Part shown: in pieces, positions 12,288-36,040 of the stretch
Numbering within the stretch: the stretch's first letter is position 1
Layout of the letters: every line of letters starts with the position of its first letter
Source: Pseudomonadota bacterium
Lineage (GTDB): Bacteria; Pseudomonadota; Gammaproteobacteria; Burkholderiales; Burkholderiaceae_C
NCBI GenBank assembly: GCA_030538085.1
Contig: JAUNUR010000029.1
Span: 1-36,040, forward strand
Direction of reading: 5' to 3'
Length of the DNA stretch: 36,040 bases
Translations under genes and position numbers: made by a program
Notes under the pieces: generated by a model
Database searches by the model: none
What the model was told of the DNA's origin: nothing
What the model saw: the letters and a program-made list of their open reading frames with translations, nothing else

Positions 12288-12605
12288 TCAGGCCGGTAGC
12301 GGCACCAGGCGCCAGCCCTGCGGCGCGACTTGCTGCGCCAGCAGCAGGTCGATATTGGGGTGCGAGCCGGGGTGCGCCCGCGCCTCGACCACGTGCTCGG
12401 CGAACCATTCCAGGCCTTGGGCAATGGCTGCCTTGCTCAGTTGCCCATCAAACGCTTTCGCCAGCGCGTGGTAGATGCGCAGCGAACCCAGCTTGCCCGG
12501 CGCGGCGGGGATGTGGTGCACGACGGCGTCGGCGGCGTCAATCACATCGAGCCCGCGCAGATGATCAACCGGCGGCAGCGTGGCCAGCGTTTCCGCAAAG
12601 CTCAC
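12288..12605 (-). CDS. DUF2322 family protein
   Basis: 105-residue small cytoplasmic protein of unknown function. The sequence ([62 protein letters not shown]) matches what I recall of DUF2322. The GTG start at 12605 is chosen because it overlaps the uppP stop by 4 bases (GTGA at 12605-12602), with GGAGG just before. This suggests translational coupling to uppP and possibly a related role, but no function can be claimed. It has no signal peptide or membrane segment. Confidence 0.8.
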
Positions 12606-27986: not shown

Positions 27987-29240
27987 TCAGGCCGTGCTAT
28001 ACGCCACGCGCCGCGCGATTTCCGCAATCAGTTGCTGCGCCAGCACCCGCTTGCTGGCGTGCGGCAGTTCAAGCACGCCGCCCTCGTCCACCAGCAGCAG
28101 GGCGTTGTCGTCCTTGCCGAAAGTGGCCGGGCCGATGTTGGCCACCAGCAGCGGCACGCCCTTGCGCGCGCGCTTGGCCTGGGCGTTGGCCTGAAGGTTC
28201 TCGCTTTCGGCGGCAAAGCCGACGCAGTACAGCTCGCCGCCTTGCGCCCGCGCCGAACGCGCGATGTCGGCCAGGATGTCGGGGTTCTCGACAAAGGCCA
28301 GTTGCGGCACCTCGCCCGAGCCGTCCTTCTTGATCTTCTGCTCGGCGGCATTGGCAGGCCGCCAGTCGGCCACCGCCGCCGTGGCGATGAAAATGTCGGC
28401 ATTGGGCGCCTGGCCCACGGCGGCGGCGTGCATGTCGCGCGCCGATTGCACGTCGACGCGCCGCACGCCACGCGGCGTGGGCAGATGCACCGGGCCGGCA
28501 ACCAGCGTCACCTCGGCCCCCGCCTCGCGCGCCGCGCGGGCAATGGCAAATCCCATCTTGCCGCTTGAGTGGTTGGTGATGCCGCGCACAGGGTCGATGG
28601 CCTCAAAGGTCGGCCCCGCCGTGACCAGCACGCGCTGGCCCAGCAACGGCTTGGGCGCCAGAAAGGCGATCAGCTCTTCCAGCAGCTCAGCCGCCTCCAG
28701 CATGCGGCCATCACCGAACTCACCACAGGCCTGATCGCCATGCGCCACGCCCAGCATGTGCGCGCCGTCTTCCGTCACCTGCCGCAGGTTGCGCTGCGTG
28801 GCGGGGTGCGCCCACATTTCGCGGTTCATGGCCGGCCCCAGCAACAGCGGCACGCAGTTCATCGGCCGCGCCAGACACAGCAGCGCCAGCAGCTCGCCCG
28901 CCCTGCCCTGCGCCAACTGCGCGATGAAATCGGCGCTGGCCGGCGCGACGACGATGGCATCGGCCTCGCGGCTGAGGTTGATGTGCGCCATGTTGTTGTC
29001 GGGCCGCGGGTCCCACTGCGACACGTACACCGGCCGGCCCGACAGTGACTGCATCGCCACCGGGGTGATGAACTGGCAGGCCGCCTCGGTCATCACCACC
29101 TGTACGGTGGCGCCGGCCTTGACGAGCAGGCGGCTGAATTCCGCCGCCTTGAAACAGGCCGCCCCGCCGGACAGACCCAGCACGATGTGGCGGCCAGCCA
29201 GCTCGCCGTCAGCGGCATTCGGAATAGTGTTCGTGTTCAT
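27987..29240 (-). CDS. coaBC: Bifunctional phosphopantothenoylcysteine decarboxylase/synthetase
   Basis: 417-residue enzyme of coenzyme A synthesis. The N-terminal flavin-dependent decarboxylase (CoaC) shows His86 (MAHINLS), Asn139 (GPAMNREMW) and Cys172 (QACGEFGDGRM), matching the E. coli catalytic residues. The C-terminal CTP-dependent synthetase (CoaB) starts at about residue 205 with VLVTAGPTFEAIDPVRGITN and HSSGKMGFAIA, and includes AAVADWRPANAAEQKIKK. Length is standard. It is divergent from pyrG across 88 bases. Confidence 0.96.
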   Translation of the reverse strand: MNTNTIPNAADGELAGRHIVLGLSGGAACFKAAEFSRLLVKAGATVQVVMTEAACQFITPVAMQSLSGRPVYVSQWDPRPDNNMAHINLSREADAIVVAPASADFIAQLAQGRAGELLALLCLARPMNCVPLLLGPAMNREMWAHPATQRNLRQVTEDGAHMLGVAHGDQACGEFGDGRMLEAAELLEELIAFLAPKPLLGQRVLVTAGPTFEAIDPVRGITNHSSGKMGFAIARAAREAGAEVTLVAGPVHLPTPRGVRRVDVQSARDMHAAAVGQAPNADIFIATAAVADWRPANAAEQKIKKDGSGEVPQLAFVENPDILADIARSARAQGGELYCVGFAAESENLQANAQAKRARKGVPLLVANIGPATFGKDDNALLLVDEGGVLELPHASKRVLAQQLIAEIARRVAYSTA

Positions 29241-29253
29241 GACGGCAATGTAG

Positions 29254-31317
<2,064 letters not shown>

Positions 31318-31529
31318 GCGTTTTCAATAACCTTCTCCGCAACAAGCTGCGGAGTATTCGCCGCTTCGCTTCCCGCCCCTTCAGGAGCGTTGCTGGAAAC
31401 GCCGCAAGCGGTGGGGAATACGACCCCGTAGAGATTCAACCCCCCAATCCTGCATCCATCGCTCAGCGATGGATGCAGGATTGATCGTGCTTGCTATTTT
31501 GGGGAAGCCTTTGTAGCTTGAGTTAGCCA
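31318..31529. other. Chromosome-integron junction region
   Basis: No gene is supported. The stretch holds a CTCCGCA/TGCGGAG hairpin (31335-31354), facing GTATTC/GAATAC and CCGCTT/AAGCGG arms between about 31354 and 31421, and a 39-base near-perfect palindrome (31445-31483). At its right end GCTTGAGTTAGCC (31516-31528) resembles the first half of an attC site directly after the stop of the leftmost cassette gene. Confidence 0.5.
31445..31483. repeat. 19-bp perfect inverted repeat
   Basis: CAATCCTGCATCCATCGCT (31445-31463) and its exact complement (31465-31483) flank a single C. There is no T-run on either strand. It marks the transition from the pyrG region to the cassette array. Confidence 0.75.
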
Positions 31530-31964
31530 TTAAAGTATTGTTGCGCACCACTTTTCTCCGCGCATGATTTTCACACTATCAACCCTCCATTCCCCTTGTG
31601 ATTTTTGTAGAACATAAAGCAACTTTCCGCCATATAACGAATGGTCGCGGATGGTTTCTACATGCCATTTTTTCCCATACGCTTGGGAAAAAGTTATTTT
31701 TTCAGTGAGAGGATCATACTGCGGAGGCCTTGAAAAACCACCATTCCGCCCATAAGGTCTTTCTTTAGGGGTGCAATACAAGGAAAAAACTTTCTCCATG
31801 AATTTATTTGTGACCTCAAAGTACCCTGAAGGATTTTCGTCACTCCTATATTCCCTTGACAACTTGTAAGATAGCAATTCCCACTGATTCATAGCACCGA
31901 TGAATGCTTCAAGCACAGAGGTTGGTTCATTGTAATTACAGGTTGGATAGGTGATATCAGACAT
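31530..31964 (-). CDS. Cassette protein, possible NTF2-fold immunity-like
   Basis: 144-residue soluble protein. The helical N-terminus (SVLEAFIGAMNQWELLSYKL) and closing beta segments (LYVLQKSQGEWRVDSVKIM) have the look of an NTF2-like fold, and the AMNQWE segment recalls NTF2-fold immunity proteins. This is tentative; no active site can be named. GGAAAA precedes the ATG. It is the leftmost cassette; its attC is reduced to a half-site at 31516-31528. Confidence 0.6.
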   Translation of the reverse strand: MSDITYPTCNYNEPTSVLEAFIGAMNQWELLSYKLSREYRSDENPSGYFEVTNKFMEKVFSLYCTPKERPYGRNGGFSRPPQYDPLTEKITFSQAYGKKWHVETIRDHSLYGGKLLYVLQKSQGEWRVDSVKIMRGEKWCATIL

Positions 31965-31982
31965 GCGATTTTCCGATGTAAT

Positions 31983-32042
31983 GGATAACGCTGGAGTTAA
32001 GCGGGCGCGCGTAGCGCACTCCGCTTGAATGACTTGTTATAC
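31983..32042 (-). other. attC site a (60 bp)
   Basis: GGATAAC (31983-31989) and GTTATAC (32036-32042) are the outer boxes; AGTTAAGCGGG and CCGCTTGAATG are the inner arms. It directly follows the M23 peptidase gene, whose stop codon abuts the outer box. Confidence 0.88.
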
Positions 32043-32555
32043 CTACCCACCCAAGTATGAACCTGGATCGATAAAGAACGCCTTTTTATAGCCTTGCGTT
32101 GAACGATCAATGGCCCAAGGCGCCGGCATGAGGCGAACTATAGAATAATGTAAGTGTGGCGGTTTGCCTTTAGCATTGCCGCTATCACCCACTGTGCCAA
32201 TTAAGCTGCCTGCGCCTACCAAGCTGAATATCGATGTGTCTATCGTGTTTAAATGAGCAAAGTAGTGAAACCGCCACTTTGGCCCCAGAACAACAACGAC
32301 ATTGCCTCCTTTGGGAATTTGACCGGTATAAAGAACGATGCCGTCTGTTGTGCTAGCCACGGCAGAACCTAGCCGGCCAAAGATATCTATACCTTTGTGA
32401 ACCCCGGATGTGCCCCAAGGCTCAAACCAAAAGGACTTTTGATTCCAGTCTGCCTTAGACGCACCAACGACTGGAATTCTGATTCTTTCAGGAACAACAA
32501 AACCAATTGCCAATACGGCAACTACAATCAAAACTGCCTTCTTTGTTTTTGACAT
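32043..32555 (-). CDS. M23-family metallopeptidase, membrane-anchored
   Basis: 170-residue protein with one N-terminal hydrophobic helix (7-21, VLIVVAVLAIGFVV) and a LytM/M23 domain. Zinc ligands and catalytic residues are all visible: His53 and Asp57 (HKGIDIF), His101 (HYFAHL) and His136 in HLHYS. The G-rich SLIGTVGDSGNAKG loop is typical. M23 enzymes cut peptide cross-links in peptidoglycan. The protein should face the periplasm. As a cassette-borne hydrolase it might act in cell-wall remodelling or antagonism; neither is shown. The start is 11 bases from the attC b border and lacks a strong ribosome site. Confidence 0.85.
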   Translation of the reverse strand: MSKTKKAVLIVVAVLAIGFVVPERIRIPVVGASKADWNQKSFWFEPWGTSGVHKGIDIFGRLGSAVASTTDGIVLYTGQIPKGGNVVVVLGPKWRFHYFAHLNTIDTSIFSLVGAGSLIGTVGDSGNAKGKPPHLHYSIVRLMPAPWAIDRSTQGYKKAFFIDPGSYLGG

Positions 32556-32565
32556 ACTTGATCTG

Positions 32566-32625
32566 GTATAACGCCGGAATTAAGCCGCGCCGCGGAGCGG
32601 CGTCGGCTTGAATGAATTGTTAGGC
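32566..32625 (-). other. attC site b (60 bp)
   Basis: Boxes GTATAAC (32566-32572) and GTTAGGC (32619-32625), with inner arms AATTAAGCCGCGCCGC and GGCGTCGGCTTGAATG. The TAA stop of the neighbouring cassette gene is formed inside the GCCTAAC box. Confidence 0.92.
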
Positions 32626-32967
32626 ACCACCCGCGGAGTGCGGATCAAACTGCCAGTCCGTCAAGGACTGGTACACGGTGCCGTCATCATCTTGCACGTG
32701 GCCACCTAGAGCATGAGCAATTTGAAGCATCTTTTGGTACAGAGCGGTGTCGGGCCACTTTGTACTGATGTTGCCTTGGAACCAATCCAGCCATGGCTCC
32801 TCATAGGCCGAATTTCCATGCCAGCGCGCGAAGTAGTCGCCTTGCGAGGTATCGAGTGAAAGCTCGGGATCAGACTCGATGTATGACAACCACTCATGCT
32901 CAGTGATGGGTGAGGCCTCATTGTCCGCCCAGAACTCTGCGCGGGTGATGTATAGCTCGACTCCCAT
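32620..32967 (-). CDS. Cassette protein of unknown function (acidic, Trp-rich)
   Basis: 115-residue soluble acidic protein beginning MGVELYITRAEFWADNEASP, with YFARWHG and EPWLDWFQGNISTKWPD further on. I have no family name. ATG at 32967 is chosen because AGGAGAGG precedes it; a longer frame to 32991 would begin within the attC box. The stop codon is supplied by the attC site. There is no signal peptide. Confidence 0.8.
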   Translation of the reverse strand: MGVELYITRAEFWADNEASPITEHEWLSYIESDPELSLDTSQGDYFARWHGNSAYEEPWLDWFQGNISTKWPDTALYQKMLQIAHALGGHVQDDDGTVYQSLTDWQFDPHSAGGA

Positions 32968-32982
32968 AACCTCTCCTGTGGT

Positions 32983-33099
32983 GCCTAACATTAAAGGTAA
33001 GCGGCGACTGAGCGAAGCGGAGGGAACCCATAAGCAATGCGTGCAATTTACGAAGCAAACGCATTGCTTTTGGGCGTCCGCTTGACCGACGGGTTAGGC
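32983..33099 (-). other. attC site c (117 bp)
   Basis: Boxes GCCTAAC (32983-32989) and GTTAGGC (33093-33099). Inner arms include GGTAAGCGGCG and CGTCCGCTTGACC, with a long stem using AAGCAATGCGT and ACGCATTGCTT. It belongs to the same family as the partial site at the right edge. Confidence 0.9.
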
Positions 33100-33199
33100 A
33101 AGAAGAAGCGCAACCGTGACACAACCCGAATGTGCCAGCCTAAATTGGCTCCAACACCGCATTCCTCCGCCCATCATCCACGCAGCCCTTGCCGAAAAT

Positions 33200-33427
33200 C
33201 TACCCAAGGATGTAGCGTGTGATGGTTTTCGATGTCATTATCAATAACAGGATGCCGACGCCAAAAAACGCCTCCGGCAAAAATAAGTAAATGGCTAAAA
33301 AAACGAGGCTCCAGAGCGACAAATAAAATAACAATCGAGGCCTCGATTTCCTGAAGGCGAATATCAGTTTTCCGTAAAATAAAATGAAGCCGAGAATAGG
33401 AAAAATCAGAATGATGGGATCCCACAT
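33200..33427 (-). CDS. Small cassette membrane protein
   Basis: 75-residue very hydrophobic protein with two or three helices (PIILIFPILGFILFYGKLIF, LLFYLSLWSLVFLAIYLFL, FGVGILLLIM). The function is unknown. It is preferred over an overlapping 86-codon frame on the same strand, which is less protein-like. A weak start context and an upstream 24-codon frame (33431-33505, MSCKKSEKSGSDDDFAHRF...) suggest that translation might be coupled. The 100 bases from 33100 to 33199 hold nothing recognisable. Confidence 0.6.
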   Translation of the reverse strand: MWDPIILIFPILGFILFYGKLIFAFRKSRPRLLFYLSLWSLVFLAIYLFLPEAFFGVGILLLIMTSKTITRYILG

Positions 33428-33430
33428 GGC

Positions 33431-33505
33431 TCAAACACTCACGACTTGAAAGCGGTGAGCGAAATCGTCATCCGACCCTGATTTCTCTGACTTCTTACAC
33501 GACAT
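33431..33505 (-). CDS. Possible 24-codon mini-gene in the cassette leader
   Basis: This frame, reading MSCKKSEKSGSDDDFAHRFQ, starts just inside the cassette border and stops 3 bases before the ATG of the small membrane protein. Charge-rich composition and close spacing fit a coupled leader or small protein, but there is no clear Shine-Dalgarno. Confidence 0.3.
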   Translation of the reverse strand: MSCKKSEKSGSDDDFAHRFQVVSV

Positions 33506-33509
33506 AAAT

Positions 33510-33616
33510 GCCTAACGCTTGAGTTAAGCCGCGTTGCGAAGTGGACGTGCGGCGGCGTAGAGTAGTGTAACAAGGCAAGGCCACAAAGCAACGTCGGCTT
33601 GAACGACTTGTTAGGT
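33510..33616 (-). other. attC site d (107 bp)
   Basis: Boxes GCCTAAC (33510-33516) and GTTAGGT (33610-33616). The arms GAGTTAAGCCGCGTTGC and GCAACGTCGGCTTGAACG match site e. The inner stem differs (TAGTGTAACAAGGCAAGGCC region). Confidence 0.9.
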
Positions 33617-34285
33617 GCTGGCATTGATGTATCTATAAGTTTCATAACTATCTCTGTAAACTTTTTCAATTGCCTTATCGCGCTTTAGCCGGAAATGTTC
33701 ATCCACCTCTTTCTTTTTAAGGTTGTAATGCTTTTTATTAACAAAACCGGCCGAACAAAGAGTTGGGTGCTCAAGTAAAGGCGTAAGGTCTCCACTTAAT
33801 ATTTTCGTATTCACAAATCTGAAATCTAGCAAATGTGGCAAACGATGTAGAAATTCAAGATTATGAATAGGTCCACATTCATTCAAGCACAAAACCCGAA
33901 GATTATAGAGACTGAAAAGCTCTTCGCTTGGGGAGAGTTTTTTGGATTGATTAATGTGCAACCATTTTAGTGAGTCGCCTAGCTGCGATAAACCTAAATC
34001 ATTTTCAAGCTTTAGACAGTACTGCACCTCTAAGCGCTTTATTCCGCTAAGCTTAGATATTCCGTTCAATGACTTTATATTTGACGACCAAATATAGAGG
34101 TAGTCAACTAAGCCAACGGGCGGGAAGTCAACAAAATCCGCTGTGCATGACTTAAATCTATCAGCAAAAATATACCTTTTATCTTTAAGACTGCCGTTGA
34201 ATCGTGAACTGTTTCTAAAATCCGCAAATACCAAATAATCTGGAGGTAGTTGGTCGTGCCAAATTGTGTTGTAAGTCCAGTCCAT
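33611..34285 (-). CDS. Leucine-rich-repeat cassette protein
   Basis: 224-residue soluble protein. The central part has irregular leucine-rich repeats: LNGISKLSGIKRLEVQYCLK, LGDSLKWLHINQSKKL, LYNLRVLCLNECGPIHNLE and LPHLLDFRFVNTKILSG. The C-terminal tail is Lys-rich (NLKKKEVDEHFRLKRDKAI). Such proteins bind other proteins; here the partner is unknown. The stop codon lies in the attC box. GGAAAA precedes the ATG. Composition is the most AT-rich in the window. Confidence 0.8.
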   Translation of the reverse strand: MDWTYNTIWHDQLPPDYLVFADFRNSSRFNGSLKDKRYIFADRFKSCTADFVDFPPVGLVDYLYIWSSNIKSLNGISKLSGIKRLEVQYCLKLENDLGLSQLGDSLKWLHINQSKKLSPSEELFSLYNLRVLCLNECGPIHNLEFLHRLPHLLDFRFVNTKILSGDLTPLLEHPTLCSAGFVNKKHYNLKKKEVDEHFRLKRDKAIEKVYRDSYETYRYINAST

Positions 34286-34303
34286 GATTTTCCTTGATCC
34301 GGC

Positions 34304-34411
34304 ACCTAACGCCTGAGTTAAGCCGCGTTGCGTAGTGGCGCGGCGTTGTGGTAGACGCTACCACAAAAGCCGGCGCCACGAAGCAACGTCGGCTTGAACG
34401 AATTGTTAGGC
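34304..34411 (-). other. attC site e (108 bp)
   Basis: Boxes ACCTAAC (34304-34310) and GTTAGGC (34405-34411). Outside arms equal those of site d, and the inner stem is extended by TTGTGGTAG and CTACCACAA, a perfect 9-bp hairpin. Confidence 0.92.
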
Positions 34412-34426
34412 CGCTAGAACTATGTC

Positions 34427-35524
34427 TTAGCGCTCATTGGGCATCTTCTTTCCCAATGTCGTAATGGCTCCGGCAAACAATCCGCCCAGCCCAGTACGCG
34501 ATATTTGGATCACTTCATTAAGTCCTGATGCAGTTCTCAGTGAAATTTCTTCGTATTGGCAAATCGGAAGTTGGATGTTGTCTTTAAACCTTTTGTCTGG
34601 GCCTCCAGACTTATTAACATATTTCCAAGTTCGTCCTATTACCTTCGCGTCACGCGGGACAGCCTCACTTTCAATGAACTGAGTAGCGGATACGTCTAAA
34701 TTAAGTTCTTTGTAATTTACAGAGCCAACACCAGATTGATCGTAAATAAGAATACGGTCTGGGAAGAAATGAAGAGTCTGCCTGCCTACTCCAATTGCGA
34801 CAGTCTCAATATTGGTTTTCAGGTACGGCGGGGATCCTCTAAAAATCATCGTGCGCTTGCGTCGCACCAAATCACTGGCGCCAGCATGATATTTTCTATC
34901 ATAAACTTTGCCGGATGCTTCAATGTGCCAAGCGCATGAACAACCGGATAGTTTTGTAGCTGCAGAGTGGAGTTCTTGGTACGCAGCCTCCATTTCTGAA
35001 TCGAAGTCGTAAAAAAGAACCACTGTTTTATTAAGTGAATCTCTAATGTAAGTTATATAAACACCAACAACACAAATTGTTGCAATGGCAATGACAAGCC
35101 AAGTGGGTAGGCCTAAATTAAATGTGAGAAGTGCGATGCCAGCCGAAACGCATGCTGCAATGGGCCAAATCCTTATCTTCGAATTTTTATTCTTTATCTC
35201 GTCAAGAAGCTCCCTTGATGACGATTCTACTATTTTAGAAATATCTGCCGACTCGATTTCGACAAGAGGCGCGTGAGTTCCATCTGGAATTTGAACATCT
35301 TGTGCGAGATTTCGATTAATTGAGTGATGATCTTCGCCTTGGCTTGCGGTAGATGGCAAAGTAGCCCTGTAATATAGGCCATGGCGGCCCATGTGGACAT
35401 AATTTCCTCTTGGGCCAATGCCTACTCTAAGGCCCTTTATTCCAGTGGAAACTCCAACCCCAGATTTTGATAAGTTGAATCTTAGCGGACCAACGCTGAT
35501 GCTTTTCCGCAAATAAAACCCCAT
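34427..35524 (-). CDS. DUF4236 membrane protein
   Basis: 365-residue protein. The N-terminus (MGFYLRKSISVGPLRFNLSK, then SGVGVSTGIKGLRVGIGPRG) is the DUF4236 signature. Two adjacent transmembrane helices follow (about 119-137 and 140-160), then a C-terminal domain of about 200 residues with beta-rich stretches (RTMIFRGSPPYLKTNIETVA, LHFFPDRILIYDQSGVGSV). The function is unknown. DUF4236 proteins with membrane helices are widespread in accessory DNA. GGAGG 6-7 bases before the ATG supports the start. It is the largest cassette in view. Confidence 0.85.
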   Translation of the reverse strand: MGFYLRKSISVGPLRFNLSKSGVGVSTGIKGLRVGIGPRGNYVHMGRHGLYYRATLPSTASQGEDHHSINRNLAQDVQIPDGTHAPLVEIESADISKIVESSSRELLDEIKNKNSKIRIWPIAACVSAGIALLTFNLGLPTWLVIAIATICVVGVYITYIRDSLNKTVVLFYDFDSEMEAAYQELHSAATKLSGCSCAWHIEASGKVYDRKYHAGASDLVRRKRTMIFRGSPPYLKTNIETVAIGVGRQTLHFFPDRILIYDQSGVGSVNYKELNLDVSATQFIESEAVPRDAKVIGRTWKYVNKSGGPDKRFKDNIQLPICQYEEISLRTASGLNEVIQISRTGLGGLFAGAITTLGKKMPNER

Positions 35525-35555
35525 GATCTGCCTCCGCGATAATGTTTAACAAGCG

Positions 35556-35615
35556 GCCTAACGCCTGAATTAAGCCGCGCCATGAAGTGGCGTCGGCTTG
35601 AATGAATTGTTAGGC
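35556..35615 (-). other. attC site f (60 bp)
   Basis: Boxes GCCTAAC (35556-35562) and GTTAGGC (35609-35615). Arms are nearly identical to site b, differing mainly in the loop (CGCCATGAAGTGGCG). Confidence 0.93.
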
Positions 35616-35972
35616 CTCAGCCCACTCACCGACTTGCGGGTTGAACAAGGCCATATATTCGGACTCAAAGAGTTCGCTTGCATCCTGTAGCGCCTCAAAG
35701 ATGGCGTCGTCAGAGTTCTCCCAATATGGAACTGAAAATGCTATCTCTGTTGTAAATACCGAAACCTGTATTGGGCAGTCGTCGATGTGCTTTGCAAATT
35801 CACGACAGTCTGAAGTTGTAGTCTCGAGGTTGTAATCATACTTGGCCAGATTACTGACAAACCTCTCGACGGCAGATGGATCAAGAGGCGGGTGCTCGAA
35901 CTCATCTATCTTTCGTCCTTGCTCAACTTGCTTACGAACTATGGGGTGGAAGATCTGGATGTTGTAGCTCAT
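35610..35972 (-). CDS. Cassette protein of unknown function
   Basis: 120-residue acidic soluble protein (MSYNIQIFHPIVRKQVEQGR, CPIQVSVFTTEIAFSVPYWE, DAIFEALQDASELFES). I do not recognise a family. The stop codon is formed by the attC box. AGGAG precedes the ATG by 6 bases. The start lies 19 bases from the cassette border. Confidence 0.8.
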   Translation of the reverse strand: MSYNIQIFHPIVRKQVEQGRKIDEFEHPPLDPSAVERFVSNLAKYDYNLETTTSDCREFAKHIDDCPIQVSVFTTEIAFSVPYWENSDDAIFEALQDASELFESEYMALFNPQVGEWAEA

Positions 35973-35985
35973 TGTTGCTCCTGAG

Positions 35986-36040
35986 GCCTAACGTTGAAGG
36001 TAAGCGGCGCCGGAGCGAAGCGGAGGGAACCCAAAAGCGT
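35986..36040 (-). other. attC site g, cut by the window end
   Basis: GCCTAAC (35986-35992) is followed by GGTAAGCGGCG and CGGAGCGAAGCGGAGGGAAC, matching the start of site c. The rest of the site and its gene lie outside the window. Confidence 0.85.

Follow-up and report, generated by a model that had tools for sequence, protein, structure and literature searches.

Clusters of attC sites without a neighbouring integron-integrase gene (intI), known as clusters of attC sites lacking integron-integrases (CALINs), occur in about the same number as complete integrons (2961 and 2760; PMC9024848; this and the other papers are cited for individual passages). Their origin has been explained by decay or loss of intI, by rearrangement or by off-target insertion, and is treated as open (PMC8618304); they are said to be mobilisable in trans (PMC12444791). 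In Treponema, attC remnants are reported where intI was lost, and the passages concerned leave attI aside (PMC3607928). The attI site, which IntI recognises as a double-stranded sequence (PMC8946536), is poorly described outside class 1 integrons, where the standard tool misses it (PMC9024848); an attI-bearing leader at such a cluster could therefore easily escape notice. A LexA box is frequent in the integrase promoter Pint, and recombination between two attI sites is possible (PMC8946536). Here we describe the cassette array at the end of contig JAUNUR010000029.1 (assembly GCA_030538085.1, a member of the Burkholderiaceae_C; the whole stretch of 36,040 nucleotides is called the window, and the contig C71), together with the integrase-less arrays of its genus, many of which start with a copy of the attI leader of the resident integron.

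The resident integron of this genome resembles a sedentary chromosomal integron: an intI scoring over the family cut-off is divergent from an attI-led array of attC sites and has, as far as its sequence tells, a LexA-like box of clade A at its start. It differs in that the one intI is accompanied by arrays elsewhere with their own attI copy, and the attC sites of the window are of mixed types instead of homogeneous. These other arrays, called satellites below, are attC clusters without a neighbouring intI, as CALINs are, and in Xanthomonas, too, the locus of intI is separate from those of the CALINs (PMC12444791). CALINs are, however, defined without attI in the relevant passage of PMC8618304, whereas many satellites start with the resident attI and a copy of its box. 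Insertion at attG sites likewise places cassettes away from intI through IntI acting in trans, but attG is said to be unlike attI (PMC12901181), and the sites found here are attI copies. In the delta-attI-type cassettes of mobile integrons a piece of attI also travels away from intI (PMC12901181, in the passage on these cassettes); there the fragments lie within single cassettes, whereas here a leader of about 110-130 bp lies 5' of a whole array. No report of attI copies at CALINs was recognised among the papers found by searching an open-licence library. What appears to be new is that integrase-less arrays of the genus often have an attI leader of their own, which the resident IntI would use.

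Leaders of integrase-less arrays

The end of the window is a genuine integron gene-cassette array, as a reading made from the sequence alone had proposed: covariance models score its attC sites, a circle-closure test is passed, and the genome, a 3.50-Mb draft of 134 contigs, holds an intI with further attC sites. That sequence-only reading saw no integrase, which is correct for C71 but not for the genome, where one lies on contig C4. This single integrase gene over the cut-off (C4:11451-12389) scores 448 bits against the TIGR02249 cut-off of 265, and 467 against 435 for NF011946; four further TIGR02249 rows in the genome are all under the cut-off. Upstream of it lie an attI (12498-12550), which directly precedes the first GTTAGGC and resembles the sites of genomes G015 and G001 by sequence only, and then five attC sites, which reach as far as the end of the contig.

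Two further contigs, C88 and C117, bear attC arrays without intI, each starting with a match to the C4 attI. The attI core pattern, with up to 3 mismatches, occurs at three places in the 3.5 Mb genome (reversed control, 0), namely beside intI on C4, on C88 and on C117, and all three abut a first cassette; 22 consecutive identical bases are common to the C4 and C117 sites. Across the genus (29 genomes, this one included) the pattern is found at 10 places in 4 genomes. Eight of these continue with GTTAG and the C117 site with GTATAGG, while one place in G012 shows neither and looks like a chance match. The profile R2, which was trained on the attI core sites and is circular for them, reported one other place at E ≤ 0.01, a weak match in G017.

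Resident integrons of the genus form two clades, differing in attI cores and boxes: clade A (G000, G001, G015, G027) and clade B (G002, G004, G012, G014, G024, with G005 and G016 assigned by box only). attC sites matching the covariance model R1 are present in at least 14 of the 29 genomes, among 150 candidates scored per genome. Thirty-four attC clusters away from a functional intI were taken in, including two located by the attI search itself (G015 C16 and G001 1989k) and one with a decayed intI (G012 C319); C71, which has no upstream sequence, and a weak site on G020 C89 (30.8 bits) were left out. An attI of the matching clade lies within 2.5 kb upstream of 17 of the 34 clusters, or 15 of 32 without the two attI-located ones. 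Eight of these 32 have less than 800 bp of upstream sequence and are all negative; with at least 800 bp, 15 of 24 clusters are positive (14 of 23 without G012 C319). The same 57,490 bases gave 1 match when reversed, 0 on the opposite strand and 0 in five shuffles. The same patterns matched 16 times in 2.19 Mb of strand sequence taken from other genera (79 loci), and part of these matches may be genuine attI sites; that rate would give about 0.4 matches here. The clade B pattern was drawn from resident sites. No intI at the threshold used is present in G017, G028 and G006, yet one G006 cluster has a clade B leader. Four attI-led satellites sit in two single-contig genomes, G004, with intI at 624 kb and a satellite of 11 attC sites at 2.18 Mb, and G027, with one intI and three satellites. 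Integrase-less arrays in the genus are shown often to begin with what is, in sequence, a copy of the resident attI leader.

A separate test is provided by a palindromic box, about 70-87 bp upstream of the attI core, that was outside the attI search and in resident integrons lies at the intI start. The clade A box, CTG-N10-CAG with at most 1 mismatch, is LexA-like in appearance and ends 108-109 bp before the end of the attI GTTA; it is found at that spacing in all four residents and in 7 of 10 intI-less leaders. The clade B box, the palindrome TTTTAGGTTTGYCTAAAC with up to 3 mismatches, ends 91-94 bp before the same point in 5/5 residents and 8/8 intI-less leaders, so that a box at resident spacing is present in 15 of the 18 intI-less leaders overall. 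The box-attI length hardly varies despite a low mean pairwise identity in the middle stretch (28% in clade A, 29% in clade B); identity is 53% and 54% in the attI zone, and in the box zone 33% for A, whose box includes ten free bases, and 46% for B. In both clades a second motif like TTATCCG, noticed by eye about 33 bp before the crossover, resembles a sequence at the left end of the leader and is possibly an additional IntI-binding site. At the end of G005 C48 (L235) the resident leader diverges from those of its relatives inside the box, close to the contig end; an inserted element is a possible cause.

Arrays of one genome also share sequence. In G004 the resident array (14 attC sites, 625-631 kb) and the satellite (2.176-2.180 Mb) have common stretches, the best three being 98.3% identical over 653 bp, 95.7% over 324 and 96.0% over 321. 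The first three C4 cassettes (306-321 bp, 86-93% alike) are without a convincing open reading frame (ORF). The first of them is 90% identical to the first cassette of the C88 satellite, and a related cassette (81-83%) opens a G027 satellite, whereas the first resident cassette of G027 matches over only about 107 bp; the 3' end of cassette 4 of the window is 96% identical over 74 bp to the first C4 cassette. A family of cassettes of about 306-321 bp, none with a convincing ORF, stands next to attI in the C4 array, the C88 satellite and the G027 satellite. The C4 leader and cassettes have no Rfam match up to E 1, and the ORF-less stretch holds no excess of sigma-70-like promoters (1, against 1.8 expected by chance).

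Proposed use and origin of the satellite leaders

Integrase-less arrays thus often start with a leader made of attI and an upstream palindromic box, without intI. Such leaders would be docking sites for the single resident IntI, which would insert and exchange cassettes at the satellites in trans; the cassettes might be expressed by read-through from a host gene on the same strand. The sequences suggest that one enzyme serves several scattered cassette stores. We consider it probable that the window holds the distal part of an array in a one-intI genome, that satellites act as docking sites in trans, and, with less confidence, that the window array is itself a satellite, the one beginning on C88. 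If so, a single regulated enzyme could allow a bacterium to operate several cassette stores; and should intI-less arrays carry an attI of their own at the start, direct tests of how CALINs arise and whether they are active would be possible, from sequence and through trans-recombination.

Several observations weigh against this interpretation. Nine of the 24 clusters with enough upstream sequence do not begin with anything resembling attI (G006 C84, G014 C16, G014 C7, G015 C143, G017 C6, G017 C96, G024 C57, G028 C5 and G028 C7), the box is missing in 3 of the 10 clade A leaders (C88, G015 C16 and G015 C180), and the patterns for clade A and G027 were drawn partly from satellite sites that were later counted. 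Most genomes are drafts or metagenome-assembled genomes. About 59 bp of the intI start survive in a G027 satellite at 2.633 Mb, which is what the decay of an integron would leave, and fast drift of unselected remnants could mimic both the short junctions and the missing intI described below. As to the window, the proximal end of its array is unassembled and its leader unseen, and the C88 flank was not found near pyrG in the relatives' loci examined.

How the leaders came to the satellites admits two answers. One is that the leader is a dispersing element, copied without intI. The box and its spacing would then be kept by selection for a role other than in intI control, for instance in repressor-controlled recombination or array expression; each copied leader would be a docking site, with cassettes read through from a co-directional host gene. 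Many CALINs would accordingly be working satellite integrons and not relics. We hold this view tentatively, somewhat below even chance. The other answer, possible but on the doubtful side, is that satellites are degraded complete integrons, whose platforms were duplicated or acquired and lost intI while attI and box were kept for a while; a degraded-integron origin has been put forward for CALINs (PMC9024848). The G027 satellite at 2.633 Mb, which matches the resident leader over 176 bp at 83.5%, the piece of intI start included, speaks for leaders being remnants of whole integrons. At G012 C319 (23354-24073) a decayed intI adjoins its attI, with attC nearby; it is a second intI in a genome that also has one over the cut-off. 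This is the only place where a tblastn match to IntI was obtained upstream of a leader, and the box there is degenerate, whereas most satellites have good boxes. With four IntI proteins as queries (E ≤ 0.05), tblastn gave no remnant in up to 3 kb before each of the other 18 leaders, the available sequence being less than 450 bp for two of them. Furthermore, seven leaders (C117, C88, G004, two of G027, G024 C85 and G005 C62; Table 1) lie within about 55 bp of an ORF stop, which leaves little room for a former intI, and the identified neighbour genes vary from site to site. That leaders spread as units is favoured by how short the junctions are and by how G012 C319 differs. In a relative's 4-Mb contig (G001 C1, 1073066-1073641) intI matches come in two pieces, and the gene is probably broken there, or the assembly in error.

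For the distances to the ORF stop the leader was taken as the 130 bp ending in GTTA, and the direction of upstream genes was counted among ORFs submitted to Pfam. Thirteen leaders have a supported upstream gene, which points toward the array in 12 of them, the exception being G015 C177; five have none, and at G015 C16 the distance to the gene exceeds 1 kb. The co-directional genes may reflect read-through expression or the avoidance of promoters. At G024 C85 (L254 1479-2193) a RelE-type toxin gene and a helix-turn-helix (HTH) gene directly precede the satellite leader. The trpB-like loci of 14 relatives have no leader core within 1.5 kb behind the gene (one is without sequence there and one has 112 bp), and none offered an orthologous empty site with alignable intergenic sequence, the 14 relatives aligning only to about the trpB-like stop; such a site was sought for the idea that a GTTAWWC motif close to the box bounds a mini-cassette. 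Contig C117 ends in an element (L032 1-165) of which copies, about 95% alike, are found on nine other contigs of the genome.

A possible partner contig of the window array

The array occupies the last 4.5 kb of the window, on the minus strand, and the contig stops inside an attC, position 36040 being the contig end; C71 has at least two attC sites, no intI and an unassembled proximal array end. The window array might belong to the resident C4 array as its distal part, the assembly having separated it from intI at repeated attC sites. The ends of C71 and C73 share 51 bp of attC (the C73 copy is at most 4 bp from the contig end), so the assembly is ambiguous there, and the authors of IntegronFinder 2.0 warn of such an artefact in draft genomes (PMC9024848). 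In C73, however, the attC end is followed by host DNA with a gspE gene (TIGR02533, 679 against 630 bits), and the order C4 left flank, intI, array, C73 gspE flank is common to G001, G015 and G027. Because of this conserved order the distal end of the resident array is most likely C73, not pyrG, the gene next to the window array, and the latter is therefore, judging from synteny, probably a separate integrase-less array. The C88 satellite lacks a distal end, and only C71 is left for it among the contigs found; by this elimination the window array may belong to the satellite starting on C88. A split of the resident array is thus considered unlikely.

Off-target insertion at attG-type sites unrelated to attI has been reported for IntI1 (PMC12901181 and PMC12444791, in passages citing Loot et al. 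2024), and could hold for the nine clusters without attI. attG is said there to differ greatly from attI, whereas the first junction of the satellites is preceded by an attI-matching core, as on both C88 and C117, and the distant box recurs at a fixed spacing in most leaders. As a general source of integrase-less arrays such insertion is improbable, and it was dropped for the attI-bearing ones, where the core and box matches refute it.

Cassettes and flank of the window

The features of the window are listed in Table 1, with the ORF-less first cassettes and the satellite leaders close to an upstream ORF. Tandem attC sites with palindromic R and L boxes are present, and the covariance-model check advised by the sequence-only reading was borne out. 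Six complete minus-strand sites score 58.3-76.9 bits with R1, which was built from 17 attC sites of this and related genomes, three of them from the window. R3, trained on 18 sites all from other genomes and so independent of the window, recovers five of the six in full. A stricter palindrome scan detects four of the six; window 1-29000 yielded no site, and ten shuffles of 29001-36040 averaged 0. In a circle, the 5' end of a cassette and its own 3' R'' box form one attC. When this closure was examined, the 5' start of each of the seven cassettes was found to pair with its own 3' R'' box, and among the 5040 permutations of the seven units the pairing sum was reached by the true order alone. Two attC sites match, by position, sequences beside plasmid resistance cassettes. 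That the repeats are conserved and non-mobile, and not attC, is hardly credible, being refuted by R3 and the closure test and at odds with these plasmid matches, and nothing was found in its favour.

The window has no Rfam match at the gathering threshold. A plasmid megablast of the array returned short pieces only, at attC positions, with a best cover of 4%, and no record spanning most of the array. The setting is not that of a mobile (class 1-like) integron, pyrG flanking this array and gspE the resident one, with a plasmid cover of at most 4%. The seven cassettes have a guanine plus cytosine content of 46.1%, against 67.0% for window 1-31011, where the lowest 4.5-kb stretch (250-bp steps) reaches 64.5%; they are AT-richer than the host, as had been claimed.

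Table 1. Features of the window array and of related first cassettes and leaders elsewhere; coordinates are those of the window unless a locus (L) is given
Feature	Coordinates	Strand	Evidence or remark
3' half of attC cut by contig end	35986..36040	-	R1 28.4 bits, model positions 23-60, cut at 5'; R3 16.4 bits, E 0.12
Cassette 7, 120-aa protein (35610-35972)	35609..35992	-	attC box makes stop codon
attC of cassette 7	35556..35615	-	R1 76.9, R3 71.0 bits
Cassette 6, 365-aa protein, N-terminal DUF4236 (34427-35524)	34405..35562	-	PF14020 58.4 bits, cut-off 27
attC of cassette 6	34304..34411	-	R1 62.2 bits; R3 two weak pieces only, 22.2 and 14.3 bits
Cassette 5, 224-aa weakly leucine-rich-repeat-like protein (33611-34285)	33610..34310	-	PF12799 17.7 bits, under cut-off 27
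attC of cassette 5	33510..33616	-	R1 58.9, R3 51.6 bits
Cassette 4, doubtful 75-aa ORF (33200-33427)	33093..33516	-	resident-type 3' end and attC
attC of cassette 4, resident-type R''/L'' sequence	32983..33099	-	R1 58.3, R3 48.2 bits
Cassette 3, 115-aa protein (32620-32967)	32619..32989	-	ORF
attC of cassette 3	32566..32625	-	R1 70.8, R3 65.8 bits
Cassette 2, 170-aa M23 peptidase (32043-32555)	32036..32572	-	PF01551 63.1 bits, cut-off 28.7
attC of cassette 2	31983..32042	-	R1 69.9, R3 62.8 bits
Cassette 1, distal end of array, 144-aa NTF2-fold immunity protein (31530-31964)	31522..31989	-	PF15655 57.2 bits, cut-off 25
pyrG, host flank at distal end of array	29329..31011	+	TIGR00337 784.8 bits
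ORF-less first-position cassettes, C4	L016 12545-13488		
ORF-less first-position cassette, C88	L031 7-327		
ORF-less first-position cassette	L197 from ~6735		
C117 leader			5 bp behind same-strand TrpB-like ORF
C88 leader			25 bp behind same-strand 245-aa ORF without family match, itself behind weak MCE match
G004 leader			20 bp behind same-strand BktB
G027 leader			54 bp behind same-strand LldD-like ORF
G027 leader, another			overlaps same-strand SCO1 ORF by 4
G024 C85 leader			14 bp behind same-strand HTH gene
G005 C62 leader			32 bp behind same-strand Fis-type HTH

The seven genes with attC sites announced by the sequence-only reading correspond to seven cassettes, with the reservation that the ORF of cassette 4 is doubtful and cassette 1 has no intact attC. 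The latter is decayed to an R'' remnant ending at 31522, which keeps 10 of 11 bases (counted by eye) and pairs with the cassette's own 5' end. Stop codons formed by attC boxes, also proposed, are found in three of the seven cassettes (35610, 33611 and 32620) and not in the others. The suggestion of anti-phage or toxin-antitoxin content did not hold: PADLOC matched none of nine cassette proteins, seven of them from the window, and only the immunity-like protein of cassette 1 was found. The cassette 7 protein has no Pfam, NCBIfam, PADLOC or PDB match, that of cassette 3 no Pfam, NCBIfam or PADLOC match (best PDB E 0.95), and PDB searches for cassettes 7, 3 and 6 yielded nothing useful. The M23 peptidase of cassette 2 has, judged by eye, a hydrophobic N-terminus.

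The position beside pyrG is as first described. The start of kdsA adjoins pyrG in 15 of 19 relatives' loci (the family was confirmed for one) and was not found in the window; at 30950-31530 a lipoprotein-like ORF, and then the array, take its place after pyrG, so that the pyrG-kdsA linkage seems broken beside the array. Between pyrG and cassette 1, the stretch 31318-31442 matches several other contigs of the same genome and 31445-31483 is a near-perfect palindrome; the whole, 31318-31483, is probably a repeat with a terminator-like element.

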